Source: Streptomyces sp. V4I2 (GTDB taxonomy: Bacteria; Actinomycetota; Actinomycetes; Streptomycetales; Streptomycetaceae). From it: DNA of 64,000 nucleotides. Location: positions 4,030,001 to 4,094,000 of the forward strand of contig NZ_JAUSZM010000003.1 of the NCBI RefSeq assembly GCF_030817655.1, read 5' to 3'. Positions 7,124 to 62,060 of this stretch are shown here, one piece after another; the first letter of the stretch is position 1; the number at the start of each line of letters is the position of its first letter. The notes beneath the pieces were generated by a model. The model saw nothing but the letters and a program-made list of their open reading frames with translations, was not told the DNA's origin and made no database searches. The translations under genes and the position numbers were made by a program.

Positions 7124-7202
7124 GGGGACTCCGCGGGGTGAAGGGCACGGGGGACACGGCGACGCTATCCCAGCGCCCTCGCGCCGATCACCGTCAGCGC
7201 TC

Positions 7203-7436: not shown

Positions 7437-7520
7437 ATGGTTGCCCAGGCCCGGAACTTCTCCTCGCGTCGCCACGTCGATCTGCGACGCGTGGGCACGG
7501 CCGTCTGTCGCCTCCGGTAG
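7437..7520 (+). CDS. Leader peptide of the RRHVDLRRV...C type, upstream of sulfur genes
   Basis: A 27-codon frame starting MVAQARNFSSRRHVDLRRVG and ending AVCRLR. The (R)RHVDLxRV...C pattern is one I know from short putative leader peptides that precede sulfur-assimilation and sulfonate-transport operons in Streptomyces. The single Cys codon lies four codons before the stop. A TAGCTT -10-like box (7424-7429) ends 8 bases before the ATG, so the transcript may be leaderless. A bulged hairpin lies 24 bases after the stop and the ROK gene follows. I infer cysteine- or sulfur-responsive attenuation. The peptide itself probably has no other role. Confidence 0.7.
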   Translation: MVAQARNFSSRRHVDLRRVGTAVCRLR

Positions 7521-7544
7521 GTCGGGGCGGGCGGAGCGGATCCG

Positions 7545-7572
7545 GTGCGCCTCGACTCATGAGTCGGCGCAC
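7545..7572 (+). promoter_or_regulatory. Hairpin after the leader peptide (attenuator candidate)
   Basis: GTGCGC-CT-CGACTC (7545-7558) pairs with GAGTCG-GCGCAC (7561-7572), giving 12 base pairs with a 2-base bulge and a 2-base centre. It lies between the leader stop and the GAGG ribosome site of the ROK gene. Confidence 0.5.
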
Positions 7573-7601
7573 TGTCGGACCCGTTCCTGAGGATGATCTT
7601 C

Positions 7602-8825: not shown

Positions 8826-8879
8826 TTCAGAAATGCGGAATATTGACAGGCCCGGCCCGAGGGAAGGAACATCCTGGTC

Positions 8880-8906
8880 ATGAGCTGTCGCACCCTCTGT
8901 TGCTGA
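8880..8906 (+). CDS. Cysteine-rich leader peptide MSCRTLCC
   Basis: An eight-codon frame, M-S-C-R-T-L-C-C, stop. GGAAGGAAC lies about 9-10 bases upstream. Three of eight codons are Cys, two of them consecutive before the stop. It precedes the sulfonate-binding protein gene by 141 bases containing two hairpins. The arrangement is that of a cysteine-tRNA-sensing attenuation leader. It is too short for ordinary gene finders. Confidence 0.65.
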   Translation: MSCRTLCC

Positions 8907-8914
8907 CGCGTTGC

Positions 8915-8989
8915 CGCGCTTGAAGCGCGCGCCCACCTCTCTTCCTGCGTGAATTCCCTTGTCGGGCTCCGGGCTTTCCTCTGCCCGGA
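8915..8989 (+). promoter_or_regulatory. Two hairpins between the Cys leader and the transporter gene
   Basis: CGCGC-TTGAA-GCGCG (8915-8929) begins 8 bases after the leader stop. TCCGGGC/GCCCGGA (8968-8974 and 8983-8989) has an 8-base loop. Ribosome position on the Cys codons could decide which forms. The GGAG of the downstream gene is at 9037-9040. Confidence 0.45.
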
Positions 8990-9047
8990 ATCGCGCGCGC
9001 GTTTCCCTTCACCTCTCGCTTCACTTCTCGGCTTACGGAGATCTCCC

Positions 9048-10112
9048 ATGCCTTCCCCACCCCTGCCCGGAATCGACCGACGGCTCTTCCTCACCTCCCT
9101 GCTCGGCGTCTCGGCCGCCGCGGCCGGGCTCAGCGGCTGCGCGGACAGCAGCGCCGCGGCCTCGAAGTCGTCCCTCTCCGAGCCGCTGGCGAAGACGGTC
9201 CCCGCCGGCACCAGCTTGAAGATCGCCTCGTACCAGAACGTCCAGCAACTCCAGTTCAGGCTCGCGAAGTTCGGCGAGCTGCCTTTCAAGGTGAGCAGCT
9301 GGGCGAACATCGGCGCCGGCCCCGACGTCATCAACGCATTCCGTTCGGGATCCCTGGACGTCGCCAACAACGCGGGCATTCCGCCGATCCAGGCGCAGTT
9401 CCAGGGCTACGACGCGAAGATCGTCGCCATCAACGTCACCCGCAAACCGAACTATCTCTTCGCCACCAAGCCCGGCAGCGACATCCGCTCGGTCGCGGAC
9501 TTCGCGGGGAAGAAGCTGGCCTTCTCGCAGGGCCAGGCGCAAGGCGTCGTACTCCTGCGGGCGTTGAAGAAGGCGGGGCTCGCGTACGACGACGTGAAGC
9601 TCGTGCCGCTGACCAGCAACCAGTTCCTCACGGCGCTGCAGTCGGGCCAGGTGGACATCGCGCCGCTCGCCAACCAGCAGGCGCCCGCCTATCTCCAGCA
9701 GTACGAGTCCAAGGGCGCCCACGCCATCACGACCGACGTCGTGGACCTGCTCAACCTGCTGTGGGCGCCGACGTCCGTGCTGTCCGACTCCGCGAAGGCC
9801 GCCGCGGTCGCCGCGTACATCCCGTACTGGGCGAAGGGCCAGGTCTGGCAGTACGAGCACCCGGACGTCTGGAACAGGGAGTTCTACGTCAAGACGCAGA
9901 ACCTGAGCCTCGCGCAGGCGCGGTCGATCACCGAGCTCGCCAACAAGCCCCTGTTCCCGCCCAGTTGGGACGAGGCCGTGCGGTGGGAGCAGGAAACCGC
10001 CGATCTGCTGGCGGAGGGCGGCTTCGTGAAGGGCTTCAAGGTCGACTCGCTCTTCGACCGGCGCTTCGAGGGCATCGCGGCGAAGTCCGTACCGGCGGAG
10101 TACCGGAGGTGA
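9048..10112 (+). CDS. Sulfonate/aliphatic sulfur ABC transporter, substrate-binding lipoprotein
   Basis: A 354-residue periplasm-side receptor that delivers an organosulfur compound to the permease. The N-terminus DRRLFLTSLLGVSAAAAGLS followed by GC combines a twin-arginine signal with a lipobox (LSGC), so it is a Tat-exported lipoprotein. The body has the SsuA/TauA (NMT1-like) fold signatures: FRSGSLDVANNAGIPPIQAQ, then DFAGKKLAFSQGQAQGVVLL and LLQSGQVDIAPL-like segments. ATG 9048 has GGAG eight bases upstream; the GTG at 8949 lacks one. It starts a tightly coupled set ssuA-ssuC-ssuB-monooxygenase-dioxygenase. The true substrate (sulfonate, sulfate ester or similar) cannot be told. Confidence 0.87.
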   Translation: MPSPPLPGIDRRLFLTSLLGVSAAAAGLSGCADSSAAASKSSLSEPLAKTVPAGTSLKIASYQNVQQLQFRLAKFGELPFKVSSWANIGAGPDVINAFRSGSLDVANNAGIPPIQAQFQGYDAKIVAINVTRKPNYLFATKPGSDIRSVADFAGKKLAFSQGQAQGVVLLRALKKAGLAYDDVKLVPLTSNQFLTALQSGQVDIAPLANQQAPAYLQQYESKGAHAITTDVVDLLNLLWAPTSVLSDSAKAAAVAAYIPYWAKGQVWQYEHPDVWNREFYVKTQNLSLAQARSITELANKPLFPPSWDEAVRWEQETADLLAEGGFVKGFKVDSLFDRRFEGIAAKSVPAEYRR

Positions 10113-10957
10113 GCGCCACCGTGACCACGACCGCCACCGCACCCGTCACGCCGACCGAGGCCAGTCCTCAGGTCCGCCGACGCCGCCGCCTCTCCCCCGG
10201 CCGCCGGCTGCCCGCCACCCGCCTGCTCGGCCCCGCCCTCATCCTCGCCCTGTGGGCTGCCGCCTCCGCCGCCGGACAGCTCGACCCGGGTGCGATCCCG
10301 GCGCCCTGGACGGTGCTGGAGACCGGCGTCCACCTGTGGACCGACGGCACCCTGCCCAACGACATCCTGACCTCGCTGCAACGCGCCGGATCGGGCTTCG
10401 CGATCGGCCTGACCGCGGGCATCGCCCTCGCCCTGGCCGCCGGGCTCAGCCGGACCGGCGAGGCGCTGATCGACGGGTCCGTGCAGCTCAACCGGGCGAT
10501 CCCGACGCTCGGTCTGATCCCGCTGTTCATCCTCTGGCTGGGCATCGGCGAGACCTTCAAGGTCGCGATCATCGCGATCGTCGTCTACATCCCGATCTAC
10601 CTGAACACGCACTCCGCGCTGTCCGGCATCGACCACCGGTTCGTCGAACTCGCCGAGGTCCAGGGCCTGTCGCGGTACGCCTTCATCCGGCGGATCGTCA
10701 TCCCCGGCGCCCTGCCCGGCTTCTTCGTCGGACTGCGGCTCGGCGTGACCGGATCCTGGCTGGGCCTGGTCGTGCTGGAGCAGATCAACGCCACCAGCGG
10801 ACTCGGCTACATGATGTTCCAGGCCCAGAACTACGGCCAGACGGACGTCATCCTCGTCGGCCTGGTCGTCTACGGCATCTTCGGCCTGATCTCCGACAGC
10901 GCGGTCCGTCTGATCGAACGGAGGGTGCTGTCATGGCGCCGCACGCTGAGCAGCTGA
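10109..10957 (+). CDS. ssuC: Sulfonate-type ABC transporter permease
   Basis: A 282-residue inner-membrane permease with about six transmembrane segments after a basic N-terminus. The BPD_transp_1 coupling motif is present: ELAEVQGLSRYAFIRRIVIP, followed by GALPGFFVGLRLG, as in SsuC and TauC. The GTG start overlaps the preceding TGA (GTGA) with GGCGGAG eight bases upstream; GTG at 10121 is an in-frame alternative. The 3' end runs 25 bases into the ATPase gene, so the three transporter genes are translationally coupled. Confidence 0.87.
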   Translation: MSATVTTTATAPVTPTEASPQVRRRRRLSPGRRLPATRLLGPALILALWAAASAAGQLDPGAIPAPWTVLETGVHLWTDGTLPNDILTSLQRAGSGFAIGLTAGIALALAAGLSRTGEALIDGSVQLNRAIPTLGLIPLFILWLGIGETFKVAIIAIVVYIPIYLNTHSALSGIDHRFVELAEVQGLSRYAFIRRIVIPGALPGFFVGLRLGVTGSWLGLVVLEQINATSGLGYMMFQAQNYGQTDVILVGLVVYGIFGLISDSAVRLIERRVLSWRRTLSS

Positions 10958-49556: not shown

Positions 49557-51050
49557 GTGACACACCCGCCGAAAAGCAGCGCGGCACCACCACCAGGCTC
49601 CGGTGTGCCCACGATGCCCGCGGTACCACCACAGCCGCAACCACAGCCACACCCGAGCGGCCCAGTGCCGCCGGTGCAGCACAACAACCCCACTCCCCGC
49701 ACGTCCCCTGCTCCCCCCACCCCGCCCGAGCCGCACCGCCGCACCGCCTTCGCCGAGGGCGTCGACCGACTGCGCACCGCCGCCACCACCGAGCCCGGCC
49801 GGCTGCGCATCATCGGCGCCGTCCTCGCCCTGCTCGTCGTCGCGTTCGGTACCGTCACCGCCTGGCAGATGGCCGACCGGTCGACCGCCGCCGACGACGT
49901 GCTGAACAACAGCCAGCCGCTGAGCTCCGCCGCGGCCGACATCTACCGCTCGCTCGCCGACGCCAACACCGCCGCCTCCAGCGGCTTCCTGGCCGGCGGC
50001 CAGGAGACGGCCGCCTCCCGCGACCGGTACGAGAAGGACATCGACGCCGCCGCCGAGGGCCTGGTCCAGGCGGCGGCCAACTCCGACCCGGACTCGCCGG
50101 CCGCGGAAACCGTGGCCAGGCTGAACAAGCTGCTGCCGGAGTACAAGGGCCTGGTCGAGCGGGCACGGACGTACAACCGCCAGGGCTTCCCGGTCGGCGG
50201 CGCCTATCTGCGGTACGCCAACGAGAAGATGCAGAAGGAGATGCTCCCGGCGGCCGAGGATCTCTACAAGAAGGAGAACCAGCGCCTGCGCGCCGACTAC
50301 GGCGACGCCACGCCCTACCCGTGGGCGGCGATCGGCCTCGGCGTCCTCGCGCTGGCCGCGCTCGCCTGGGCCCAGCACCGCAACTACCGGCGTACGAACC
50401 GCGTCCTGAACCACGGCCTGGTCGCGGCCACCGCGACCGCCACGGTGGTGCTGCTCTGGCTGGTCGTCGGCCACAGCGTGGCGCGCGCGGCCCTCGACGA
50501 CTCCTACGACCACGGCGTCCGCTCACTGAACGTCCTGCACGACGCCCGCATCGCCTCCCTGAAGGCGCGCGGCAGCGAGAACCTGACCCTGGTGGCCCGC
50601 GGCGCCGAGACCGTAGAGGTGAACGGCACGACGTACGACGCCTACGACCACGACTTCGGCGAGGAGATGGACACCCTCGGCAAGGGCCTGGCCGAGGCGG
50701 AGAAGCTCGCCGACGACAAGACGGGCGAGCAGCCGGTCACCGCGGCCGTCGGCAACATGGCCGAGTGGAAGAAGCGTCACGCCGCGGCCCGCGACCAGGA
50801 CGAGAACGGCAACTACCAGGCGGCGCTGGACAGGGTGATCGGCCCCAAGGGCGCGACCGGCGAGTGCTTCGACAGCGTCGACGCGAACCTCGCCACAGCG
50901 ATCACGCACGAGAACGCCGAGTTCGAGCAGGCGGCCGGCAACGGCCTGGACGCGATGACGGGGCTCACGGTGGGCGCGGCCGTCCTCGCGGTCCTGGGCG
51001 CGGCCGGCGCCGTCCTGGGTATCGGCCGCAGGCTGTCGGAGTACCGGTGA
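49557..51050 (+). CDS. GlnX-like four-segment membrane sensor protein
   Basis: 497 residues. A Pro/Gln-rich cytoplasmic tail (1-65), TM1 (about 84-104), a helical outer domain of about 150 residues, TM2 (about 254-273), TM3 (about 286-307), a second helical outer domain of about 150 residues, and TM4 (about 463-488) ending GIGRRLSEYR. The topology and its place before a solute-binding protein and a PknG-type kinase match GlnX (Rv0412c) of mycobacteria, which passes amino-acid sensing by GlnH to PknG. GTG 49557 has GGGGAGG four bases upstream. Alternative view: a generic four-helix sensor. Assignment rests on topology and synteny rather than on strong motifs. Confidence 0.72.
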   Translation: MTHPPKSSAAPPPGSGVPTMPAVPPQPQPQPHPSGPVPPVQHNNPTPRTSPAPPTPPEPHRRTAFAEGVDRLRTAATTEPGRLRIIGAVLALLVVAFGTVTAWQMADRSTAADDVLNNSQPLSSAAADIYRSLADANTAASSGFLAGGQETAASRDRYEKDIDAAAEGLVQAAANSDPDSPAAETVARLNKLLPEYKGLVERARTYNRQGFPVGGAYLRYANEKMQKEMLPAAEDLYKKENQRLRADYGDATPYPWAAIGLGVLALAALAWAQHRNYRRTNRVLNHGLVAATATATVVLLWLVVGHSVARAALDDSYDHGVRSLNVLHDARIASLKARGSENLTLVARGAETVEVNGTTYDAYDHDFGEEMDTLGKGLAEAEKLADDKTGEQPVTAAVGNMAEWKKRHAAARDQDENGNYQAALDRVIGPKGATGECFDSVDANLATAITHENAEFEQAAGNGLDAMTGLTVGAAVLAVLGAAGAVLGIGRRLSEYR

Positions 51051-51064
51051 GAGGGGGCGTGACG

Positions 51065-52138
51065 ATGCGGCGGTGGATGCGAGGGCGAGGTCTGCGGGCC
51101 GGGCTGAAGGGCTGGGGCGGTGTGGGCGCGATGGCGGTCGTCTGCGCCCTGGCGTTGACGTTCGCGCTGCTGCTGCCGCTGATCCCGTCGGGCGGCGACG
51201 GCAGCACGGGCACGAGCGGCCCGGGCCTCGCGTACGGCAGCCGGGCCCGTGCCGAAGGGGGCTGCACGGACGAGATGGCGAAGGCACCCGAGAAGCAGAC
51301 GCTGTCCCCGTCCGGCGCGGACGGCCCGACCATCGAGGCGATCAAGAACCGCGAGGGCGAGAAGCGCAAGCTGATCGTCGGCGTCGACCAGAACAGCTAC
51401 CGCTGGGGCTACCGCGATCCGAACAGCGGCCAGGACGCGGCGCTCGAAGGCTTCGACATCGACCTGGTCCACCGCATCGCCGAGGACATACTCGGCGACC
51501 CGAACGCGGTCCAGTTCAAGGCGATCCCCACCGACCAGCGCATCCCGGCGATCAAGGACGGCCGGGTCGACATGGTCGTCCGTACGATGACGATCAACTG
51601 CACGCGCCTGGGCGATGTCGCCTTCTCCGCGCCCTACTTCAAGACCGGCCAGCAGGTCCTGGCGCCCAAGTCGTCGGCGATCACGGGGTACGACGGCTCG
51701 CTCGCGAAGCAACGGATCTGTACGGCGAAGGGCTCCACCGCCAACACCACGCTGGTCGAGGGCCAGAAGTCGGGCAAGCTCGTCTCGTCCGCCGACCTGA
51801 GCACCACCGTCCCCAACCAGCTCGACTGCCTGGTGCGCCTCCAACTCGGCGAGGTGGACGCCGTGGTGACCGACGGCGCGCTCGCCGCGAGCCAGGCCGC
51901 CCAGGACCCGACGGTCGAGCTGAAGGGCGAACCCTTCACCGCCGAGTACTACGGCGTGGCGATGAAGAAGGACGCCGACGATCTGGTACGCCGGGTCAAC
52001 CAGGTTCTGGTGGACTACCGCCAGGACACGGCGAACGGCTGGCAGGCGTCGTACGGCAGGTGGCTTTCGGCGACACTGGGCAAGGATCCGAAGACATCGG
52101 AACCGCCCACGCCGGCGGAGTACTCGCGCAAGAGCTGA
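51065..52138 (+). CDS. GlnH-like solute-binding protein
   Basis: 357 residues. An N-terminal membrane anchor or signal (about 18-41) lacks a lipobox cysteine, unlike the lipoprotein GlnH of mycobacteria. The outer domain is SBP_bac_3 type (about 102-345): LEGFDIDLVHRIAEDIL, IPAIKDGRVDMVVRTMTINC, VAFSAPYFKTGQQVLA. Several cysteines (GGCTDE, INCTRL, RICTAKG, QLDCLVR) probably form disulfides. Expected to sense an extracellular amino acid and signal through the GlnX-like protein. ATG 51065 is chosen because GAGGGGG lies about 8 bases upstream; GTG 51059 is too close to it. No ABC permease or ATPase accompanies it, so it is not a transporter component here. Confidence 0.78.
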   Translation: MRRWMRGRGLRAGLKGWGGVGAMAVVCALALTFALLLPLIPSGGDGSTGTSGPGLAYGSRARAEGGCTDEMAKAPEKQTLSPSGADGPTIEAIKNREGEKRKLIVGVDQNSYRWGYRDPNSGQDAALEGFDIDLVHRIAEDILGDPNAVQFKAIPTDQRIPAIKDGRVDMVVRTMTINCTRLGDVAFSAPYFKTGQQVLAPKSSAITGYDGSLAKQRICTAKGSTANTTLVEGQKSGKLVSSADLSTTVPNQLDCLVRLQLGEVDAVVTDGALAASQAAQDPTVELKGEPFTAEYYGVAMKKDADDLVRRVNQVLVDYRQDTANGWQASYGRWLSATLGKDPKTSEPPTPAEYSRKS

Positions 52139-52205
52139 CAGACCATCAACCCATGAACCCATCAACACACACCCCATCAACACACAACGCAGCGAGAGGT
52201 GATCG

Positions 52206-53540
52206 ATGGGCGTCACGGACCCCGCCGGGCCGGTGATGGACCGGGACGAGGTGGACCGTGCGCTGGCGCGGCTCGGCGCGGAGCACGAGGCCATCGAGAC
52301 CTCGCTGTTCGCCCTCCAGGACCACGCGGGCCGCAGACTCCTCGAAGGCGCCGAGCTCACCGGCGTCACCAAGGAGCGCTGGCAGGCGGCGGAGGCGTCG
52401 ATCAGCCTGCTGTGGGCGTACTTCGACGCCTACGCCGGCGCGCTGCGCTCCGCCCGTGGCATCCGCGCCCGCCGCCGCTGGTCCAGCCGCGAGGACCTGG
52501 TGGAGCTGACGGAGCTGCTGCGCGGCGAGTCCGTCACGGTCGCCGGATCCGCCTCGGCGACGGCCAACGCGCCGACGCTGCACGGTGGTTCGGGCAAGCT
52601 CAGCGAGCGGTTCTCGCTGGTCACGCTCGTGGACCGGATGAACGAGCTGTACGCGAGCTCACTGGACATGGTCGTCGCCGCCGACGCCGTGTGGTCGGCG
52701 CTGCCCGCCCGTATCGATTTACTGGCCGCGGAGCTCCAGCGCACCCGCCGGCTGGCGCACTCCGTCGGCGTACGCCCCGGGGAGCACCCGGCGGGCGACG
52801 ACCTGGAGCGCATCACGCGCACCCTGACGAACCTGCGCGAGCAGGTGGTGTCCGACCCGCTGGCGTTCTGGGTCCCGACGCCGGGGAGTTCGGCACCCGG
52901 CGGCGGCAAGCCCGACACCACGGTGTACGACCGTGAGGCGCGCGCCCTGGAGGACGTGCGCCGGGAGATCGACGCCGTGCTGACGGTCCGGCAGGACGCG
53001 GAGGCCCGGCTGGTGAAGCTGCGGGACGTGCTGTCCCGCGCGGACCGCACCCTCGCCGAGGCACGCATCGCGCGCGGCGAGGTCCTCGCGAAGATCGCGG
53101 CCACGGAGGTGCCGGTGGTCAGCGGCCCGCCGACCGTGCTGCAGGAGCAGCTGGCGACGGCCGCCGAGTACCGCAGACACGCCCAGTGGCACCGCCTCTC
53201 CCCGCTCCTGGAGTCCCTGGAGCAGAAGGCGGAGGACGAACTGCTGCGCGCCCGCGAGTCGTTGACCGCGGTCACCCAGCCCCTGGCGGTCCGCGCGGAG
53301 CTGCGCGGCCGCCTCGACGCGTACAAGGCGAAGGTCTCCCGGCACGGCCTCGCGGAGGACCCGTTCCTGGTGGAGCGTTACGACGCGGCGCGGCGGATGC
53401 TGTGGAGCGCACCCTGCGACCTGCGCGTCGCCGAACAGGCCGTGCTGCGCTACCAGCACGCGGCCGCCGAACTGCTCGCCGCCCCTCGGGTGCCGGAGCA
53501 GCAGGGCGGGCCCGAGGACCGTAGGGGGCCCGGAGCATGA
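52206..53540 (+). CDS. Long helical (coiled-coil) protein with a TTA codon
   Basis: 444 residues, soluble, mostly predicted helical from its heptad-like Leu/Ala/Glu/Arg pattern (for example EARALEDVRREIDAVLTVRQ, DAEARLVKLRDVLSRADRTL). No signal peptide, transmembrane segment or enzymatic motif is visible. It lies between the GlnH-like gene and the PknG-type kinase gene, so it is probably an adaptor or scaffold in that pathway. Codon 172 is TTA (in ARID-L-LAAE), a bldA-dependent leucine codon and the only one in the locus. AGAGGTG is the ribosome site. The 67 bases upstream carry short CATCAACAC-type repeats. Family not recognised. Confidence 0.72.
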   Translation: MGVTDPAGPVMDRDEVDRALARLGAEHEAIETSLFALQDHAGRRLLEGAELTGVTKERWQAAEASISLLWAYFDAYAGALRSARGIRARRRWSSREDLVELTELLRGESVTVAGSASATANAPTLHGGSGKLSERFSLVTLVDRMNELYASSLDMVVAADAVWSALPARIDLLAAELQRTRRLAHSVGVRPGEHPAGDDLERITRTLTNLREQVVSDPLAFWVPTPGSSAPGGGKPDTTVYDREARALEDVRREIDAVLTVRQDAEARLVKLRDVLSRADRTLAEARIARGEVLAKIAATEVPVVSGPPTVLQEQLATAAEYRRHAQWHRLSPLLESLEQKAEDELLRARESLTAVTQPLAVRAELRGRLDAYKAKVSRHGLAEDPFLVERYDAARRMLWSAPCDLRVAEQAVLRYQHAAAELLAAPRVPEQQGGPEDRRGPGA

Positions 53541-53565
53541 GCGACAGAAGGGGGACTGCGTCGTC

Positions 53566-56142
53566 ATGAGTCAGGCACAACAGCCCTGCCAGCGGCCCGG
53601 CTGCGAGGGGGCGTACGAGGACGTGGGCGGCGGCGAGCTGTACTGCGACACGTGCGGTCTCGCCCCGGTCGTCTCCACGACCGGCATGGTCGGCTCACCG
53701 CCCACCGGGATCACGGCCGGCGGCCGCGGCTCCCGGAGTTCGTCCGGCAGCGCCGGTTCGCGCGCCAGCAGCCGCAGCAGTTCGCGTACGTCGTCGCAGT
53801 CGTCGAAGTCGCGGCGCTCGGTGTCGGGACGGCTGTCGCGCTCGGTGTCGGGCCGGTCCACGGGCCGCTCGCTCTCGGTGCGCAGCTCCGGCGCGGGCGC
53901 CGGGTCGTCCTCCCGGGGCCGGCTGGGCGCGGGCCTGGTCGAGGTGCCGGGCGTGCCGCGTCCGGACCCGCGCGCGATGGTCCTGGAGAACCCGGAGGTG
54001 CCGGAGCGCAAGCGGTTCTGCTCGCGCTCCGACTGCGGGGCGCCGGTGGGGCGTTCGCGCGGCGAGCTGCCGGGGCGCACGGAGGGGTTCTGCACGAAGT
54101 GCGGCCACCCGTACTCCTTCGTCCCGAAGCTGAAGTCCGGCGACGTCGTGCACGGCCAGTACGAGGTCGCGGGCTGTCTGGCGCACGGCGGCCTGGGCTG
54201 GGTCTATCTCGCCGTGGACCGCGCGGTGTCGGACCGCTGGGTGGTGCTCAAGGGCCTGCTCGACACCGGCGACCAGGACGCGATGGAGGCCGCGATCTCC
54301 GAGCGGCGGTTCCTCGCGGAGATCGAGCACGCCAACATCGTGCGGATCTACAACTTCGTCGAGCACCTCGACCAGCGGACGGGTTCGCTGGACGGGTACA
54401 TCGTCATGGAGTACGTCGGCGGCAAGTCCCTCAAGGAGATCGCCAACGGCCGCCGCGGCCCGCAGGGCAAGCGGGACCCGCTGCCGGTGGAGCAGGCGTG
54501 CGCGTACGGCATCGAGGCGCTCGAGGCCCTCGGGCATCTGCACAGCCGCAACCTGCTGTACTGCGACTTCAAGGTCGACAACGCGATCCAGACCGAGGAC
54601 CAGCTCAAGCTGATCGACATGGGCGCGGTGCGCAGGATGGACGACGACGAGTCGGCCATCTACGGCACGGTGGGCTACCAGGCGCCCGAGGTCGCCGAGG
54701 TCGGCCCGTCGGTCGCCTCCGACCTGTACACGGTCGCCCGCACCCTCGCCGTCCTCGCCTTCGACTTCCAGGGCTACACGAACGTCTTCGTGGACTCCCT
54801 GCCCGACCCCGACAACATCGAGGTCTTCCGCCAGTACGAGTCGTTCTACCGGCTGCTGGTCCGCGCCACCGACCCGGACCCGGCCCGCCGGTTCGCGTCC
54901 GCCCAGGAGATGGCGGAGCAGCTGACGGGCGTGCTGCGGGAGGTCGTGTCGCTCCAGTCGGGGCGTGCCCGCCCTGCGCTGTCGACGCTGTTCGGGCCCG
55001 AAGTGCGGGTCACCGACACGGTGTTGTTCCCGAAGCTGGACGGAGAGGTGTCGAGGCTGGGGGCGCGGACGGTGCCCGTCCGGCGGCGTTCCCCGGCCGG
55101 TTCCCTCCTGCCCGCCGCGGCCCCTGCTCTTCCGGCCGGCGACGGAGCCGTCACCAACGCGGTCGGCACCAACGCGGCCGCCACCGCTCCCGGCCTGGTC
55201 AAGCCCGCCGACGCCGCCGTCGCCGCGCTCGCCCTGCCGGTGCCGCACGTGGACGCGTCCGATCCCAACGCCGGGTTCCTCGCCGGTCTGATGGCCACCG
55301 CGTCCGCCGAGCTGCTGGGGGCGATCGCCGCCGCGCCGACCCCGTCGACCGAGACGCGGCTGCGGCAGATCCGGGCCTGGCTGGAGAACGGCGACACGGA
55401 CACCGCCCACCAGGCCCTGCTGAAGCTGGAGGAGGAGCGGCCCGACGACTGGCGGGTCGTCTGGTACCGGGGTGTCGCGGCGCTCGTCACCGGCGACCAC
55501 GAGGCCGCCGCGCTCGGCTTCGACGCGATCTACGACGCCTTCCCCGGCGAGATCGCCCCCAAGCTGGCCCTCGGCCTGTGCGCGGAGGTTCTCGGGCAGC
55601 TCGACAACGCCGCCGAGTACTACCGCCTCGTCTGGTCGACCGACCCCAGCTATGTCAGCGCCGCGTTCGGCCTGGCCCGCGTCCAGCTCGCCACCGGCGA
55701 CCGGCGGGGCGCCGTACGGACGCTGGAGTCGGTGCCGGAGTCGTCCATCCACTACACGGCCGCGCGCGTGGCGGCCGTCCGGGCGCGGCTGCGGCAGCGC
55801 ACGGCGGTGGCCGGCGACGTACCCTTCCTGGACGATCTGACGGCGGCCGCCGGCCAGGTCGAGGCCCTGGAGGCGTACGGTCTGGACCCGGCCCGGCGTG
55901 AGCAGTTGTCCGCGGAAGTCCTCGGCAGCGCGCTGGACTGGATACTCTCCGGTGGCCAGGGTTCCGCGCCTCCGTCGGCCGCCGGGGGGCGGGTGCTGCT
56001 CGGCAGCGGCCTGGACGAGCGGGGCCTGCGCTTCGGACTGGAGCGTTCGTACCGCACGCTGGCCCGGCTGGCGTCGGGCGGCGAAGAGAGGATCGACCTG
56101 GTGGAACGTGCCAACCGTTACCGCCCCCGGACATGGGTGTAG
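53566..56142 (+). CDS. pknG: PknG-type Ser/Thr protein kinase with extra zinc ribbon
   Basis: 858 residues, soluble. Domain order: N-terminal zinc ribbon (Cys8, Cys13, Cys27, Cys30), a Ser/Arg-rich linker (55-120), the PknG rubredoxin-like metal site (Cys152, Cys157, Cys176, Cys179), kinase domain (about 197-470) and a TPR domain to the end. Kinase residues: Gly-rich AHGGLGWVY, Lys229 in VVLKG, catalytic YCDFKVDN (Asp334, Lys336, Asn339) and DMG at 351, all as in PknG, which has no Arg before Asp. In mycobacteria PknG phosphorylates the FHA protein GarA to control glutamate metabolism. This one is about 100 residues longer, with the extra ribbon and linker. AAGGGGGA precedes the ATG. Confidence 0.9.
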   Translation: MSQAQQPCQRPGCEGAYEDVGGGELYCDTCGLAPVVSTTGMVGSPPTGITAGGRGSRSSSGSAGSRASSRSSSRTSSQSSKSRRSVSGRLSRSVSGRSTGRSLSVRSSGAGAGSSSRGRLGAGLVEVPGVPRPDPRAMVLENPEVPERKRFCSRSDCGAPVGRSRGELPGRTEGFCTKCGHPYSFVPKLKSGDVVHGQYEVAGCLAHGGLGWVYLAVDRAVSDRWVVLKGLLDTGDQDAMEAAISERRFLAEIEHANIVRIYNFVEHLDQRTGSLDGYIVMEYVGGKSLKEIANGRRGPQGKRDPLPVEQACAYGIEALEALGHLHSRNLLYCDFKVDNAIQTEDQLKLIDMGAVRRMDDDESAIYGTVGYQAPEVAEVGPSVASDLYTVARTLAVLAFDFQGYTNVFVDSLPDPDNIEVFRQYESFYRLLVRATDPDPARRFASAQEMAEQLTGVLREVVSLQSGRARPALSTLFGPEVRVTDTVLFPKLDGEVSRLGARTVPVRRRSPAGSLLPAAAPALPAGDGAVTNAVGTNAAATAPGLVKPADAAVAALALPVPHVDASDPNAGFLAGLMATASAELLGAIAAAPTPSTETRLRQIRAWLENGDTDTAHQALLKLEEERPDDWRVVWYRGVAALVTGDHEAAALGFDAIYDAFPGEIAPKLALGLCAEVLGQLDNAAEYYRLVWSTDPSYVSAAFGLARVQLATGDRRGAVRTLESVPESSIHYTAARVAAVRARLRQRTAVAGDVPFLDDLTAAAGQVEALEAYGLDPARREQLSAEVLGSALDWILSGGQGSAPPSAAGGRVLLGSGLDERGLRFGLERSYRTLARLASGGEERIDLVERANRYRPRTWV

Positions 56143-56145
56143 TTG

Positions 56146-57444
56146 ATGTCGCAGATGCCCCAGCAGACCGCCCTGTCGAGGTGTCCGAGCTGCGAGGAAC
56201 CCCTCGAGTCGGGTGACCGTTTCTGCGGTGCGTGCGGATACGACCTGTCCGCCGTACCCGCGCCGCCGGGCGACCACCCGACGATCGCCATGAACGGCGG
56301 CGTGCCGCTCCCGCCGGACGGCACGCCCGGCATGCCACCGGCCGCACCGCAGCAGCCCCAGCCGCAGCCCCAGCCGCCGTACGCGGGCTCACCGCAGCCG
56401 CCGTTCACGGGCTCACCGGTGTCCCCCGCCTCGGGCGTACGGTTCGACCGGTCGCCGGAGCCCGACGAGTACCCCCTCCAGGCCCCCGATCCGCGCGTGG
56501 CCACCGACGTCCCGACCCCGCCCGACGGCATCAAGGTGTGCGTGGCCTGCCGGGCCGGCCGGGTCGACAGCGACGGCTACTGCGAGAACTGCGGGCACGC
56601 CCAGCCACGGGAGCGCGACCACATGGAGCAGGACATCGGCCCGGTGGCCGCCGTGAGTGACCGCGGTCTGCGGCACCACCGCAACGAGGACGCGTTCGGC
56701 CTCGGCTGCGCCGCGCTGCCCGACGGCTCGGCCGCGGTCGTGGCGATCGTCTGCGACGGCGTGTCCTCGGCGACCCGCCCCGACGACGCCTCGCTGGCCG
56801 CCTCCCGCGCGGCGAGCGAGTCGCTGCTCGCCGCGCTCCCCCACGGCACGCACCCGCAGCAGGCGATGCACGAGGCGATCGTCGCCGCCTCGCACGCGGT
56901 CAACGCGCTGGCCGAGGAGCCCGCCACGGCCCGCGAGCACGCCCCGCACCAGAACGCCCCCGCCTGCACCCTCGTCGGCGCGGTGGTGACGTCCGGGCTG
57001 CTGGTCGTCGGCTGGGTCGGCGACAGCCGCGCCTACTGGGTCCCGGTGGACCGCAGCACTCCCCCGGCCCGGCTCACCGAGGACGACTCGTGGGCCGCGC
57101 AGATGGTCGCCGCGGGCCTGATGAACGAGGCGGAGGCGTACGCCGACGAGCGGGCCCACGCGATCACCGGCTGGCTCGGCGCGGACGCCTACGAACTGGA
57201 GCCGCACACCGCTTCCTTCAAGCCGGACCGGCCTGGTGTGGTGGTGGTGTGCACCGACGGCCTGTGGAACTACGCGGAGGCGGCCGAGGAGATGGCCGAG
57301 GTCCTGCCGCCGGACGCCTCGGTGCGCCCCCTGCACAGCGCCCGCGTCCTGGTCGGTCACGCCCTGGACGGCGGGGGCCACGACAACGTAACAGTGGCGG
57401 TCGTGCCGTTCCCGGCCCCGCCGCAGGGGGCAGGATCGGCCTGA
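56146..57444 (+). CDS. PP2C-type protein phosphatase with two zinc ribbons
   Basis: 432 residues, soluble. Two zinc ribbons: Cys13, Cys16, Cys27, Cys30, and after a Pro/Gln-rich linker Cys132, Cys135, Cys146, Cys149. A PP2C domain follows (about 165-425) with DRGLRHHRNEDAFG, IVCDGVSS (Asp204), GWVGDSRAYW, LTEDDSW, VVVCTDGLWNY and GGHDNVTVAVV, covering the metal-binding Asp residues. It begins three bases after the PknG stop and is probably co-translated; no separate ribosome site is clear. Likely reverses the kinase's phosphorylation. Confidence 0.9.
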   Translation: MSQMPQQTALSRCPSCEEPLESGDRFCGACGYDLSAVPAPPGDHPTIAMNGGVPLPPDGTPGMPPAAPQQPQPQPQPPYAGSPQPPFTGSPVSPASGVRFDRSPEPDEYPLQAPDPRVATDVPTPPDGIKVCVACRAGRVDSDGYCENCGHAQPRERDHMEQDIGPVAAVSDRGLRHHRNEDAFGLGCAALPDGSAAVVAIVCDGVSSATRPDDASLAASRAASESLLAALPHGTHPQQAMHEAIVAASHAVNALAEEPATAREHAPHQNAPACTLVGAVVTSGLLVVGWVGDSRAYWVPVDRSTPPARLTEDDSWAAQMVAAGLMNEAEAYADERAHAITGWLGADAYELEPHTASFKPDRPGVVVVCTDGLWNYAEAAEEMAEVLPPDASVRPLHSARVLVGHALDGGGHDNVTVAVVPFPAPPQGAGSA

Positions 57445-57466
57445 GGGGCGCACACGGGGAAGTCTC

Positions 57467-57520
57467 GACGGACCGGAGGGGACCGGTCCGTCCACAGTCG
57501 CCGCCCCGCCCGAGGCGGGG
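57467..57520 (+). promoter_or_regulatory. Tandem hairpins between phosphatase and VWA genes
   Basis: GACGGACCGG/CCGGTCCGTC (57467-57476 and 57483-57492) and CCCCGCC-CGA-GGCGGGG (57504-57520). They could be a partial terminator separating the locus into two expression levels. Confidence 0.5.
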
Positions 57521-57544
57521 AGTTCGAGGGGGATTTGAGTAGGT

Positions 57545-58894
57545 ATGGCCAATTTCTCGAAGTCCAGCGTGCCGCAGTTCTCGGTGGACGTGTACCAGAA
57601 CGAGTTCCTGCCGGAGGGCGGCCGCGAGGTCAACGCGATCGTCACGGTGACCGCGACCGGCGGCGGCACGATCGGAAGCGCGGTCGCGTCGCCCCACCTC
57701 TACTCGGCCGGTCAGGGCCCGTCCGCAGCCGTGGCGATCATGGTCGACTGTTCGGGCTCGATGGACTACCCGCCGACCAAGATGCGCAACGCGCGGGACG
57801 CCACGGCCGCCGCCATCGACACCCTGCGCGACGGCGTGCACTTCGCGGTGATCGGCGGCACGCACGTGGCCAAGGAGGTCTACCCGGGAAACGGCCGGCT
57901 CGCGGTCGCCGACGCCACCACCCGTGACCAGGCCAAACAGGCCCTGCGCAAGCTCAGCGCGGGCGGCGGTACGGCCATCGGCACCTGGCTGCGGCTCGCC
58001 GACCGGCTGCTGTCCTCCGCGGACGTGGCCATCCGCCACGGCATCCTGCTCACCGACGGCCGCAACGAACACGAGTCGCACGAGGACCTGAAGGCCTCCC
58101 TGGACGCCTGCGCCGGGCGCTTCACCTGTGACGCGCGCGGCGTGGGCACCGACTGGGAAGTGAAAGAAGTCACAGGAATCGCCTCCGCACTGCTCGGCAC
58201 CGCCGACATCGTCGCCGACCCGGCGGGCCTGGCCGCCGACTTCACGCAGATGATGGAGACGGCGATGGGCAAGGAGGTCGCGGACGTCGCCCTGCGGCTG
58301 TGGACGCCGGTGGGCACCACGGTGAAGTTCGTCAAGCAGGTCGCGCCCACCGTCGAGCAACTGACCGACCGCCGCACCGAGTCCGGCCCGCGAGCGGGGG
58401 ACTACCCCACCGGCTCCTGGGGAGACGAGTCCCGTGACTACCACGTCTGCGTCGAGGTCCCGGTCGCGAACATCGGCCAGGAGATGCTGGCCGCCCGGAT
58501 CTCCCTGGTCGTCCCGCAGCCCGACGGCAGCACGCAGGCACTGGCCGGCGCGCAGGGTCTCGTACGGGCCGTGTGGACCGACGACATGGTCGCCTCCACG
58601 TCGATCAACCCTCAGGTCGCCCACTACACGGGCCAGGCAGAACTGGCACAAGCCATCCAACAAGGGCTCGATCTGCGCAAATCGGGAGACTTCGACGGAG
58701 CAACGGCCAAACTGGGCAGGGCCGTTCAGCTCGCGAGTGCCTCCGGGAACGCGGATACTGCGAAACTGCTTGCGAAGGTGGTCGACGTCGTCGATGCGGC
58801 GACAGGTACTGTGCGACTGAAGGCGAAGGTCGCGGAGGCCGACGAGATGACTCTCGAGACCCGGTCGACAAAGACTGTTCGTGTAAAGAAGTGA
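57545..58894 (+). CDS. von Willebrand factor A domain protein
   Basis: 449 residues, soluble. The VWA domain (about 60-240) has a complete metal-ion-dependent adhesion site: DCSGSM (Asp68, Ser70, Ser72), Thr143 in GGGTAIG and Asp171 in LLTDGRN. A beta-rich segment before it (QFSVDVYQNEFLPEGGREVN) and after it precedes a helical C-terminus. Such proteins bind protein partners through a Mg ion. Together with a PP2C phosphatase and a kinase it recalls the TerY-P type triad described for tellurite-resistance-linked systems, though it is longer than TerY. GAGGGGGA lies 12 bases before the ATG. Confidence 0.87.
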   Translation: MANFSKSSVPQFSVDVYQNEFLPEGGREVNAIVTVTATGGGTIGSAVASPHLYSAGQGPSAAVAIMVDCSGSMDYPPTKMRNARDATAAAIDTLRDGVHFAVIGGTHVAKEVYPGNGRLAVADATTRDQAKQALRKLSAGGGTAIGTWLRLADRLLSSADVAIRHGILLTDGRNEHESHEDLKASLDACAGRFTCDARGVGTDWEVKEVTGIASALLGTADIVADPAGLAADFTQMMETAMGKEVADVALRLWTPVGTTVKFVKQVAPTVEQLTDRRTESGPRAGDYPTGSWGDESRDYHVCVEVPVANIGQEMLAARISLVVPQPDGSTQALAGAQGLVRAVWTDDMVASTSINPQVAHYTGQAELAQAIQQGLDLRKSGDFDGATAKLGRAVQLASASGNADTAKLLAKVVDVVDAATGTVRLKAKVAEADEMTLETRSTKTVRVKK

Positions 58895-58954
58895 CCTAGC
58901 AGGACCCTAGTAGGACCCTAGACAGGACACAGAAGGAGAGGGGGACGCGCCGAC

Positions 58955-60559
58955 ATGCCGACCTGCCCGAACGGACACCAGTCGGGTTCCGACGACTGGT
59001 GCGAGGTCTGCGGTCACCGCATGGCGGGTGCCGTGCCTCCGCCCCCTCCGCCGCCGCCCCCGGGCGGAGGCTACGGCTTCCCGCCACCGCAGGGCCCGGG
59101 CACGCAGCCCGGCCCGCCCGGCGGCCGTGCGCCCGAGCCGGAACTGTGCCCGCAGTGCCGTACGCCCCGTGAGGGCGGTGCGCCGTTCTGCGAGGAGTGC
59201 CGGTGGAACTTCCTGACCAACACGGCCACGTCGTACACCCCGGCCGCACCGCCGCAGGCGCCCGGCCCCAACCCGGCCGCGCGCTTCCAGCAGCAGCCTC
59301 CGGGGCCGTCGTACGGCGGCGGTGACGGCTACGACTACCAGGGCTCGCGCCCCTCGCAGATGAACCGCCCGGCCGAACCGATCCCGCCAGGCCCGCCGTT
59401 CGGCAACGGGCCGTCGGGGCCGGGTGGTCCCCGCCCCGGTCAGGGTCCGGGTCCGGGCCAGGGCCAGGGCCCCGGCGGTCCGGGTGCTCCCGGCGGCTAC
59501 GGCGGTCCCGGTGGTCCGGGTGCTCCCGGCGGCTACGGCGGTCCCGGTGGTCCGAACGGTCCCGGTCAGGGCCCCGGCGGTCCGGGTGGACAAGGGGGTC
59601 CCGGTGGTCCGGGCGCTCCCGGTGGCTACGGCTATCCGCAACCCGGCGGACCTGGTGGCCCGAGCGGTCCTGGTGGTCCCGGCGGTCCGGGTGCTCCCGG
59701 TGGCTACGGCTATCCGCAGCCCGGCGGTCCCGGTGGCCCGGGCGGTCCTCAGGGTCCCGGCGGTCCCGGTGGCCCCGGCGGTCCCGGGCCTTTCGGTGGC
59801 GACCCGTCGCGGCCGGTTCCGCCGCCGCCCGGCCCGACCCCGCACGGCGGTCCTGGCGGCCCCGGCGGTCCCGGTCAGGGCCCCGGCGCACCCCAGGCTC
59901 CCCAGGCGTTCCAGCAGCCCGGTCCCGGCGGCCCGCCCGGCTACCCGCAGGACCCGAACCGGCAGCAGCAGGGCGGTCCGTCCTTCGGCGGCGGTGGCGG
60001 CGACTGGGAACTCCCCCCGCCGTCCTCCACGGCACCCGGCGGCCCCGGCCAGGGCCCCGGCGGTCAGGGCCCCGGCGGCGGGTACGGCTATCCGCAGCCC
60101 GGCGCGACCCAGGCCCCGCCCGCCCCTCCCGGCCCCGGCTACCCGCAGCAGCCGTCGACCTGGTCGGCGACCATCGGCCCGGACCGTGACTACTTCATGG
60201 CGATGATGCAGCGCTCGGGGCCCGAGGCCGCGGGTCTCAACCTGCCCGCGTACTCGCCCGAGCAGCAGCGCGCCCTCACCGGCAACCAGATCACCATCGG
60301 CCGTCGCCGGCACTCCACCGGCGACACCCCCGACATCGACCTGGCGGTGCCGCCGGAGGACCCGGGCGTCTCGCACCAGCACGCGGTGCTGGTCCAGCAG
60401 CCGGACGGCTCCTGGGCGGTCGTCGACCAGAACTCGACGAACGGCACGACGGTCAACGGCTCGGAGGAGCCGATCCAGCCCTTCGTGCCGGTGCCGCTGC
60501 AGGACGGGGACCGGGTGCACGTGGGCGCCTGGACGACGATCACCATCCACCGCGGCTGA
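58955..60559 (+). CDS. FHA-domain protein with zinc ribbons and a Gly/Pro-rich linker
   Basis: 534 residues. Two N-terminal zinc ribbons (Cys4, Cys16, Cys19 with a nearby His; then Cys65, Cys68, Cys79, Cys82). A very long Gly/Pro/Gln-rich linker (about 100-400) contains GGPGAPGGYG-type units. The FHA domain is C-terminal (about 445-534): ITIGRRRHS, VSHQHAVLV and NSTNGTTVNG carry the phosphothreonine-binding Arg, Ser-His and Asn-Gly. Compared with GarA/OdhI it lacks an obvious N-terminal ETTS phosphorylation motif, so it may read out phosphorylation on partners such as the kinase or VWA protein. GAGAGGGGGA precedes the ATG. Two AGGACCCTAG direct repeats lie just upstream (58901-58920). Confidence 0.88.
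   Translation: MPTCPNGHQSGSDDWCEVCGHRMAGAVPPPPPPPPPGGGYGFPPPQGPGTQPGPPGGRAPEPELCPQCRTPREGGAPFCEECRWNFLTNTATSYTPAAPPQAPGPNPAARFQQQPPGPSYGGGDGYDYQGSRPSQMNRPAEPIPPGPPFGNGPSGPGGPRPGQGPGPGQGQGPGGPGAPGGYGGPGGPGAPGGYGGPGGPNGPGQGPGGPGGQGGPGGPGAPGGYGYPQPGGPGGPSGPGGPGGPGAPGGYGYPQPGGPGGPGGPQGPGGPGGPGGPGPFGGDPSRPVPPPPGPTPHGGPGGPGGPGQGPGAPQAPQAFQQPGPGGPPGYPQDPNRQQQGGPSFGGGGGDWELPPPSSTAPGGPGQGPGGQGPGGGYGYPQPGATQAPPAPPGPGYPQQPSTWSATIGPDRDYFMAMMQRSGPEAAGLNLPAYSPEQQRALTGNQITIGRRRHSTGDTPDIDLAVPPEDPGVSHQHAVLVQQPDGSWAVVDQNSTNGTTVNGSEEPIQPFVPVPLQDGDRVHVGAWTTITIHRG
59484..59790. repeat. Degenerate tandem repeats encoding Gly/Pro linker
   Basis: Units of GGTCCGGGTGCTCCCGGCGG-type sequence repeat imperfectly, with near-identical blocks at about 59484-59540 and two GGCTACGGCTATCCGCA blocks at about 59624 and 59702. 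Likely prone to length variation in frame. Confidence 0.75.
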
Positions 60560-61549
60560 TCAACGGAGGGGCCATGCATACGGCCCCTCCGGGTCGTCCA
60601 GCCACGCCCACTCGCGTTCGCCGCTGACCGTCAGGCCGTAGCGCTCGCGCTGCGGCTGCCCCTCGCGCTCCCACAGTGCGTACGCCTCCTGCGGGTCCAG
60701 GCTGCCGCGGGTCAGGGCGAGCAGGAAGCGGAACAGCTCGTGGTCCCTGGCCCGGCGCGGCACGCCGCCCAGCGGGGCCTGCTCCGGCTCCGGCCCGCCG
60801 CCGCGCAGCGGCACGAAGTAGGCGGGCGTGTGCAGGAAATGTCCCTCGGCCTGCCCGGCGTCCGTCACCGTCAGCGCGACCAGGCCGGTGGCGAGCGGGG
60901 TCAGGATGCGGGCGCCGGGGCGGCACTGGAAGAGCCAGGCGGGCGGGATCGACGGCAGTGTGCAGGTCGCGATGATCCGGTCGAAGGGGGCTCGTTCGGG
61001 TACCCCGCGCGCTCCGTCGCCGGTGACGACGACCGGGTGGTACCCGGCGGCCGCCAGATGCTGCCGGGCAGCCTCGGTGATCTCGGGTTCCAGGTCGACG
61101 GTGGTGACGAGGCCGTCGTCGCCGAGCCGGTGGGCGAGCAGCGCCGCGTTGTACCCCGTACCCGCGCCGATCTCCAGGACCCGGTCGCCGTCCCGCACCC
61201 GCAGTTCGGCCAGCATCATCGCCATCAGTGAGGGCTGGCTGCTGGAGGAGACCAGCTCGCCGTCGCGCAGCCGGGTGGCCAGCGGGGCGTCGGCGTAGGC
61301 GCCACGCAGCCAGCGCTCGCGGTTGCGCGGGTCGGGGCTCTCGCCCCAGCGCCGCTCGTAGCCGCCCACGACGCCGACGTAGTAGTACGGCACGAACAGG
61401 TGCCGCGGCACCGCCAGGAACACCTCCCGCCACACCGGGTCGGCGGCCCACGCCCCGCTCGCGTCGATCGCCCGTACCAGCGCGGCCCGCGCGGCGGCTG
61501 CGAGGTCGGTGAGGTGTTTGTGGTCCCGGTCGAGATCGTGCGCGCCCAT
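60560..61549 (-). CDS. Protein-L-isoaspartate O-methyltransferase-like protein
   Basis: 329 residues. A PCMT-type SAM methyltransferase. Residues PRHLFVPYYYVGVVGGYERR and LVSSSSQPSLMAMMLAELRV match the region before the SAM loop; VLEIGAGTGYNAALLAHRLG is the SAM-binding motif, followed by VTTVDLEPEI. Members repair isoaspartyl residues or modify peptides. The C-terminal extension (about 230-329) is beyond the classic enzyme and common in Streptomyces paralogues, so the substrate is uncertain. ATG 61549 is preferred because the family alignment begins there; the ribosome site is weak. Its stop lies next to the FHA gene stop, and a hairpin covers its last codons. Divergent from the haemoglobin gene. 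Confidence 0.8.
   Translation of the reverse strand: MGAHDLDRDHKHLTDLAAAARAALVRAIDASGAWAADPVWREVFLAVPRHLFVPYYYVGVVGGYERRWGESPDPRNRERWLRGAYADAPLATRLRDGELVSSSSQPSLMAMMLAELRVRDGDRVLEIGAGTGYNAALLAHRLGDDGLVTTVDLEPEITEAARQHLAAAGYHPVVVTGDGARGVPERAPFDRIIATCTLPSIPPAWLFQCRPGARILTPLATGLVALTVTDAGQAEGHFLHTPAYFVPLRGGGPEPEQAPLGGVPRRARDHELFRFLLALTRGSLDPQEAYALWEREGQPQRERYGLTVSGEREWAWLDDPEGPYAWPLR
60565..60590. terminator. Bidirectional hairpin at the FHA/methyltransferase ends
   Basis: GGAGGGGCC (60565-60573) and GGCCCCTCC (60582-60590) around an 8-base loop, six bases after the FHA stop and inside the last codons of the opposite gene. Confidence 0.7.
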
Positions 61550-61596
61550 GGGTCCACTGTCCTGCGGCAGCCGCCCGGAAGCGAGCCGTTGCGTCG

Positions 61597-61617
61597 GTCC
61601 TAGGCCAGTCCTAGGCC
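61597..61617. repeat. Direct repeat GTCCTAGGCC in the divergent promoter region
   Basis: Two copies of GTCCTAGGCC separated by one base (61597-61606 and 61608-61617), between the divergent methyltransferase and haemoglobin genes. Could be a regulator-binding site. Confidence 0.4.
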
Positions 61618-61646
61618 TTGAGTCCTGGGTCTCCCCGTCTGAGACC

Positions 61647-62060
61647 ATGGGTGACGTGACAGAGATTCGGCGCGGCACGCTTCAGGAGCAGACCTTCTAC
61701 GAGCAGGTCGGCGGGGAGGAGACCTTCCGCCGCCTCGTCCACCGTTTCTACGAGGGAGTCGCCGAGGACCCGATCCTGCGGCCCATGTACCCGGAGGAGG
61801 ACCTCGGCCCGGCCGAGGAGCGCCTCGTGCTGTTCCTGATCCAGTACTGGGGCGGCCCGACGACGTACAGCGACAACCGCGGCCACCCGCGCCTGCGGAT
61901 GCGCCACGCCCCCTTCACCGTCGACCGGGCGGCGCACGACGCCTGGCTGAAGCACATGCGGGACGCCGTCGACGAGCTCGGCCTGTCCGAGGAGCACGAG
62001 CACACGCTGTGGAACTACCTGACGTACGCGGCGGCCTCGATGGTGAACACTCCCGACTGA
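61647..62060 (+). CDS. glbO: Truncated haemoglobin, group II (GlbO-type)
   Basis: 137 residues. Oxygen- or NO-binding haem protein of the 2/2 globin fold. Recognisable residues: FYEQVGGEETFRRLVHRFYE (with Tyr B10), PMYPEEDLGPAEERLVLFLI, QYWGGPTTYSDNRGHPRLRM, then RHAPF with the proximal His, and Trp in HDAWLKHM (G8), which together mark group II. May protect respiration from NO or deliver oxygen at membranes. ATG 61647 is the likely start, with an in-frame GTG at 61656 as alternative; the ribosome site is weak. The 192 bases downstream hold only a few short repeats (GACCGACTGAGC-like) before the next gene. Confidence 0.92.
   Translation: MGDVTEIRRGTLQEQTFYEQVGGEETFRRLVHRFYEGVAEDPILRPMYPEEDLGPAEERLVLFLIQYWGGPTTYSDNRGHPRLRMRHAPFTVDRAAHDAWLKHMRDAVDELGLSEEHEHTLWNYLTYAAASMVNTPD

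Follow-up and report, generated by a model that had tools for sequence, protein, structure and literature searches.

The GlnX-GlnH-PknG pathway, with GarA or OdhI, has been described in Mycobacterium and Corynebacterium (accessible portions of PMC6069109, PMC9769921 and PMC8546545). Its three-gene core is known, and conservation of this core in Streptomyces is already stated in the available text of PMC6069109. In the same excerpts of PMC6069109 and PMC8546545, the TPR domain of PknG is the proposed binder of GlnX, and the accessible part of PMC9769921 calls the passage of the signal from GlnX to PknG still elusive. PknG phosphorylates Thr14 of OdhI, and both Thr14 and Thr15 are used in vivo (PMC2784874, available portion); in Saccharopolyspora erythraea the motif of GarA is a site of phosphorylation (PMC12321487, available portion). 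Existing models were built on mycobacteria and corynebacteria, and it is there that the locus, on present evidence, is shortest. Here we describe a longer form in Streptomyces sp. V4I2. It lies in the window, the whole stretch of 64,000 nucleotides that was analysed (G000:C3:4030001-4094000, in a genome of 11.1 Mb), and comprises seven genes on the + strand (49557-60559), separated by short gaps and encoding GlnX, GlnH, an all-helical protein (HEL), PknG, a PP2C phosphatase, a VWA protein and an FHA protein. This order had been read correctly in the first-pass annotation, an earlier note made from the DNA sequence alone. The seven genes are a conserved unit. We tentatively propose, as a reading that falls a little short of probable, that together they encode a single membrane-tethered complex through which PknG responds to amino acids outside the cell, and which includes a rod, a phosphatase, a VWA protein and a reader of phosphothreonine.

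Four models were searched in a class sample of 246 genomes. VWA_3_C was found in 51 genomes and PknG in 76, and 49 genomes had both (Fisher p 2e-29, with kinship ignored). HEL was found in 52 genomes, 51 of which also had PknG. Neighbourhoods of PknG were counted within 12 kb at thresholds of >=250 bits for GlnX and E <=1e-20, <=1e-6 and <=1e-5 for PknG, VWA_3_C and HEL respectively, excluding the second fragments of three split HEL genes (G018, G233 and G122). By these measures PknG was near 46/59 VWA_3_C places, 52/58 HEL places and 67/70 strong GlnX places. One family, f4, with 19 PknG genomes, is of the Mycobacterium type; the PknG of one of its loci matched the M. tuberculosis kinase at 1405 bits and that of another at 689 bits. 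In the 57 PknG genomes outside f4, HEL was nearby in 49, VWA in 45 and a strong GlnX in 47, and 52 had HEL and/or VWA. In contrast, neither VWA nor HEL was found within 12 kb at any of the 21 PknG places of f4, 19 of which had GlnX. Some of the absences beside PknG outside f4 are contig breaks (G199 and G037, for example). A chance neighbourhood was rejected on these conservation counts.

The genes also stay together at closer range. All seven were present in 20/20 undecayed same-genus loci (the window and 19 others), a count from which L050, a decayed locus, and G199, cut by a contig end, were excluded; HEL in L040 and PknG in L048 are split over frames. Among named genomes, represented by the best 80 of 470 loci from a HEL scan, 52/80 loci had matches for all seven genes, and 21 of the 28 incomplete ones were stretches shorter than 21 kb. 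The seven longer incomplete loci lacked a match for PP2C (L123 and L124), VWA (L140, L144 and L161) or GlnH (L175 and L195), and in two shorter ones, L133 and L194, VWA was the sole gene without a match. The first-pass annotation had left open that the genes might part in related genomes, and they do not. Its pairing of GlnX-GlnH-PknG with a phosphatase, a VWA protein and an FHA protein proved to be conserved, but its description of the locus as a Streptomyces version was too narrow because the set occurs in several other families as well.

Two layouts were found, [GlnX-GlnH][HEL-PknG-PP2C-VWA-FHA] and the same blocks swapped. In the fully read loci of Streptomyces, Kitasatospora, Actinacidiphila and Actinophytocola, the sensor pair precedes the cytosolic genes, and in those of Actinomadura, Nonomuraea, Nocardiopsis, Streptosporangium and Microtetraspora it follows them, the order of the cytosolic genes being the same in both. 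Apparent swaps within a block are an effect of sorting open frames by their starts, and L194, a short metagenome-assembled Nocardiopsis contig, departs from the order of both layouts. The locus thus divides into two units, a block of five cytosolic genes and a sensor pair that moves relative to it. In L117 (8382-14091), matches for HEL, PP2C, VWA and FHA lie together with none for GlnX or PknG, and no kinase was found in this cluster within the four stretches scanned, one adjoining stretch being masked. The same-genus locus L050 (G153:C25:40000-59000) is decaying: GlnX, GlnH and PknG are fragmentary and VWA is split, and HEL, PP2C and FHA are open. In L040, HEL runs over two frames (6131-10174 and 6921-7469), the first part in frame into PknG, which points to a frameshift or an assembly error.

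The sensor pair resembles its mycobacterial namesakes, as the first-pass annotation had supposed. GlnX matched the NCBIfam GlnX family NF058618 at 514 bits, passing the cut-off of 250, and reached 191.6 bits against the narrower equivalog model NF041460, short of its cut-off of 780. A by-eye reading of the sequence gives four probable membrane helices and two extracellular domains, with only short cytosolic parts. The C-terminal tail fits the pattern R-[LIV]-x-[ED]-[YF]-[RL] in 121/132 GlnX proteins, including 6/6 in f4. The tail is thus kept both with and without HEL, which supports binding between the TPR domain of PknG and GlnX and argues against HEL as a mere replacement for the tail. Among solved structures, GlnH is closest to its M. 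tuberculosis namesake (6h1u, E 1.6e-39). Judged by the aspartate-contacting residues given in the accessible text of PMC6069109, the pocket of the window protein keeps R147, T162, R169 and D250 and has S164 replaced by T, K161 by R and W232 by Q. Position 232 is Trp in 6/6 f4 loci and in 3/68 named loci, Gln in the window and 18/19 same-genus loci and Tyr in 12/12 loci of family f17, with other residues in families f18 and f26. A pattern scan found no lipobox in the window GlnH. The pattern is present in 10/19 same-genus relatives, where the Cys lies within a longer hydrophobic stretch, and in 10/12 in f17, so that a non-lipoprotein GlnH was not upheld as a general rule for the genus.

The kinase is equally recognisable. 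PknG_rubred, Pkinase and PknG_TPR matches (PF16919, PF00069 and PF16918) follow an N-terminal zinc ribbon and a Ser/Arg-rich linker, the best solved relative is M. tuberculosis PknG (2pzi, E 6.6e-166), and this protein gave the only PknG_TPR match in the whole genome at E 0.001. Together with the GlnX and GlnH matches, this upholds the link to GlnX-GlnH-PknG drawn in the annotation. By pattern, the N-terminal ribbon was found in 20/20 PknG proteins of family f1, 12/13 of f17, 5/5 of f26 and 68/73 from named loci, and in 0/8 of f4, whose loci are without PP2C, VWA, FHA and HEL. The PknG ribbon is thus missing where PP2C and FHA, the partners that bear ribbons too, have also been lost, which suggests that the ribbons may serve as contact points. 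Some same-genus genomes have a second, distant PknG. Among eight such loci (L108-L115), four had a VWA relative beside the kinase (L112-L115) and three had the C-terminal part of HEL (L113-L115).

The phosphatase and the VWA protein retain their active- or metal-site motifs in nearly all relatives. The window PP2C has the NED, DGV, GDSR, TDG and DNVT motifs in order, and in its relatives N[EQ]D, GD[SC]R and DN[VIAT][TS], sought anywhere in the frame, were found in 106/106, 102/106 and 104/106. D.SGSM, sought in the same way, was present in 104/110 VWA relatives, and 4fx5 is a full-length relative of the VWA protein in the PDB (E 2.2e-138). The FHA protein matched FHA at 60.8 bits and the double zinc ribbon family DZR at 16.6 bits, below its cut-off. 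In an alignment of the window protein with 50 relatives, the binding residues are kept (Arg in 49/51, Ser in 51/51 and Asn in 51/51). Identity of this protein with GarA was rejected: ETT[ST] occurs in 0/114 frames of the family, the window included, and the OdhI model NF041660 (cut-off 200) gave only 20.6 bits. The annotation's view that the protein, with its zinc ribbons and Gly/Pro linker, is not a simple GarA is therefore confirmed.

HEL has no Pfam match above cut-off and belongs to no NCBIfam family. For structure prediction, 65 of the 80 HEL matches from named genomes were chosen, none of which contains a stop. An AlphaFold2 model built from 66 sequences has a mean predicted local distance difference test score (pLDDT) of 90.2 and is nearly all helix, with helices of 49, 58 and 52 residues. 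Foldseek returned no match to the model at E < 0.001, its top rows being unrelated membrane receptors. VIA-align placed EzrA first, with Z 11.3 and a root-mean-square deviation of 4.3 over 165 residues in one alignment and Z 10.5 and 10.6 over 360 in another. Naming HEL by structure was dropped, and EzrA was taken as a likeness of shape only. The predicted shape suggests that HEL may be a rod or scaffold. This helical adaptor is the newest part of the locus.

We then asked what the output of the kinase could be. Elsewhere in the same genome, beside ftsR, lies a gene for a GarA that has a zinc ribbon and the sequence SETTSTISIS; odhI has the same neighbour in Corynebacterium. The GarA of this genome reached 186.8 bits against NF041660, just under the cut-off, and the genome also has an open frame of 1308 codons that matched the 2-oxoglutarate dehydrogenase E1 model at 1178 bits. 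These two findings leave the output proposed in the first-pass annotation, one replacing control of 2-oxoglutarate dehydrogenase, unsupported for Streptomyces. A search for GarA in genomes with the long locus or PknG found it in 30/30, among them the genome with the decayed locus. By pattern, the N-terminal zinc ribbon of GarA is present in 27 of these 30 genomes, two of the other three being unread, and none is visible in the stretches of 19 f4 GarA proteins. Thr14 and Thr15 of OdhI are the two threonines of the ETTS-type motif, and we examined the corresponding residues in 99 GarA loci, of which one (G146) gave no read. ETTS is present in 11/11 same-genus and 19/19 f4 GarA proteins. Of 34 GarA proteins read from PknG genomes outside f4, 18 have V, S, Q or H in place of the first threonine. 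Counted by family, it is kept in 10/10 of f1, 3/10 of f17, 0/8 of f18, 1/3 of f26, 1/1 of f42, 1/1 of f11 and 0/1 of f27. It does not track PknG: in f17 the trend is opposite (3/10 with PknG, 8/8 without), and in f18 there is no difference, with Gln in 13/13. Loss of this threonine in several families leaves room for another output there. The classical output is therefore plausible for Streptomyces, but in several other families with the long locus it is doubtful.

Table 1. Genes of the seven-gene locus (coordinates in the window) and the GarA gene of the same genome.
Feature	Position	Strand	Supporting features
GlnX-family membrane sensor, 497 amino acids	49557..51050	+	NF058618 match; C-tail RRLSEYR
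GlnH-type solute-binding protein, 357 amino acids	51065..52138	+	ATG start; SBP_bac_3; N-terminal hydrophobic segment
HEL, all-helical protein, 444 amino acids	52206..53540	+	AlphaFold2 model; linkage to PknG
PknG, 858 amino acids	53566..56142	+	PknG_TPR, PknG_rubred, Pkinase; N-terminal zinc ribbon; 2pzi
PP2C phosphatase, 433 amino acids from TTG	56143..57444	+	PP2C_2, N-terminal Zn_Ribbon_1; codon 2 = ATG
VWA protein, 449 amino acids	57545..58894	+	VWA_3, VWA_3_C, metal-site motif DCSGSM; 4fx5
FHA protein, 534 amino acids	58955..60559	+	FHA domain C-terminal, zinc ribbons, long Gly/Pro linker, W..DR.YF extension
GarA of same genome	L200 8023-8928, G000:C3 about 1930000		

The start used for GlnX is a GTG, and its open frame extends back to an ATG at 49386. 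Upstream of the locus, a gene for a BadF/BadG-type ATPase ends at 49245. Downstream, on the opposite strand (60560-61678), a gene for a PCMT-like methyltransferase converges on the FHA gene, the two stops adjoining; the best NCBIfam match of the methyltransferase is TIGR04188, at 262.5 bits and below the cut-off of 380.

The proposed complex rests on homology, retained active-site motifs, conserved gene neighbourhoods and the presence of GarA. By analogy with the mycobacterial and corynebacterial system, GlnH would bind its ligand outside the cell, most likely an acidic amino acid, and act on the extracellular domains of GlnX. GlnX would relay the signal through its short cytosolic parts, and its C-tail (R-[LIV]-x-E-Y-R) is probably where the TPR domain of PknG docks. 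HEL and the VWA protein with its metal site could scaffold the kinase, the phosphatase and the FHA protein, all three of which carry zinc ribbons as putative contact points. Activated PknG may then phosphorylate threonines inside the complex and, in Streptomyces, GarA too, and phosphorylation of GarA would relieve inhibition of 2-oxoglutarate dehydrogenase. The FHA protein would read phosphothreonine made in the complex, and PP2C would reset the state.

Several observations weigh against such a complex. PknG is not near 13/59 VWA_3_C places, some of which are on separate or short contigs. The ribbon pattern fails in 8/12 PknG proteins of f18 (4/12 pass) and in 3/6 second f18 loci (3/6 pass), several of the ribbons being degenerate, and both Z scores of the HEL-EzrA alignments are under the level that the tool deems meaningful for helical proteins. 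The replacement of Trp232 by Gln means that the ligand of GlnH may not be aspartate. No threonine upstream of the domain in the locus FHA protein is conserved across families, which makes this protein as a substrate a guess. Finally, GarA is found in 233/246 class genomes, with or without PknG, so that its presence is no proof of a link between PknG and GarA, and among the GarA proteins read from PknG genomes outside f4 the first threonine is kept in only 16/34.

The threonine counts bear on two other accounts of the output. PknG may have no output but the one that operates in Corynebacterium and Mycobacterium, control of 2-oxoglutarate dehydrogenase by way of GarA, with HEL, VWA, PP2C and FHA tuning or localising the kinase and having no output of their own. 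A GarA with ETTS beside ftsR and an E1 match in the genome, full retention of ETTS in the genus (11/11) and the phosphorylation of GarA at its motif reported for Saccharopolyspora erythraea in the accessible part of PMC12321487 all fit this account. However, the first threonine is replaced in 18/34 PknG genomes outside f4 and kept in 8/8 f17 genomes that have no PknG, GarA is nearly universal without PknG, and a second FHA protein accompanies intact loci; we consider it rather unlikely that the classical pathway is the whole story. The converse, close to the version in the first-pass annotation, is that the FHA/VWA complex of the locus is the main effector of PknG and acts on another process, with GarA left to PknB-type kinases through its second threonine. 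Its universal second and variable first threonine (34/34 and 16/34) would be expected on such a division of labour, as would a five-gene cytosolic block that stays together, parts of which occur without GlnX, and an FHA domain with its binding residues kept. A main output of this kind nevertheless seems unlikely, given that ETTS is fully kept in the window's own genus and that no target gene was recognised adjoining the locus.

The TerY-P triad is composed of a VWA protein, a PP2C and a kinase, and the first-pass annotation had noted the likeness. The likeness stands in gene content and fails in ter linkage: the terD family has 15 matches in the genome, none of them in the window and the nearest ~55 kb upstream of it, so linkage to ter genes was ruled out within the window. 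Triads of kinase, PP2C and vWA also occur in actinobacterial GAP1-N2 systems (PMC7159879, available portion), and the locus could be a stress or conflict module of either kind joined by chance to an amino-acid sensor. We regard this as very improbable. No GTPase family was found in the nine proteins scanned (the seven and one neighbour on each side), and the gene content is conserved rather than patchy. PADLOC gave kinase-type models for PknG (best 25 of 31), one weak model for PP2C and none for the other five proteins, and a defence system was rejected on this result. Collectively, one membrane-tethered PknG complex, with GarA among its outputs in Streptomyces, is the reading that we tentatively prefer.

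A FastTree phylogeny of PknG (93 sequences and 663 columns, including 16 of the 80 named loci) is oriented on the second PknG genes, which fall into two basal groups. The f4 proteins form one clade (support 1.0) among the long-locus families, and the placement of this clade is weak (0.416, and 0.755 at the base). Since 52/57 PknG genomes outside f4 have VWA and/or HEL and 0/21 f4 places do, the textbook three-gene form looks reduced, and loss of the four genes in f4 is the simplest reading. A bolder possibility, which we find somewhat unlikely, is that PknG arose as the kinase of a seven-part membrane complex with a second, GarA-independent output, of which the form in Mycobacterium and Corynebacterium would be a stripped remnant specialised on GarA.

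The long form offers named candidates for the missing parts of the pathway, namely the rod-like HEL next to the kinase, a phosphatase dedicated to the system, the VWA protein and an FHA protein as reader of phosphothreonine. These four extra conserved genes are testable candidate partners of a well-studied kinase, and their hosts are genetically tractable, antibiotic-making genera. The site of PknG in GarA is also not conserved wherever PknG is present.

Compared with the GAP1-N2 triads, the locus has the same three kinds of protein adjoining one another and a zinc ribbon on the kinase, but instead of a GTPase its seven proteins include a sensor pair, a TPR kinase, HEL and an FHA protein. With the TerY-P triad it shares VWA, PP2C and kinase together, a likeness in gene content, but no terD-type gene is present in the window. 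Like GarA and OdhI, the locus FHA protein combines an FHA domain with a zinc ribbon at the N terminus; it differs from them in its lack of ETTS, its long Gly/Pro linker, its W..DR.YF extension and its score against NF041660 (20.6 versus 186.8 bits for the GarA of the same genome). In the open-licence literature, covered thinly and mostly at the level of titles and abstracts, we found no description of HEL, PP2C, VWA or FHA beside PknG, and the four added genes at pknG may be new relative to the three-gene core. Beyond these genes, the locus differs from the known GlnX-GlnH-PknG system in the extra N-terminal zinc ribbon of PknG, in Gln for Trp232 of GlnH and in a window GlnH without the lipobox pattern that about half of its same-genus relatives have. 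It shares with that system the sensor pair, the kinase architecture, the GlnX-GlnH-PknG order, the GlnX C-tail, several pocket residues of GlnH and a GarA in the genome.

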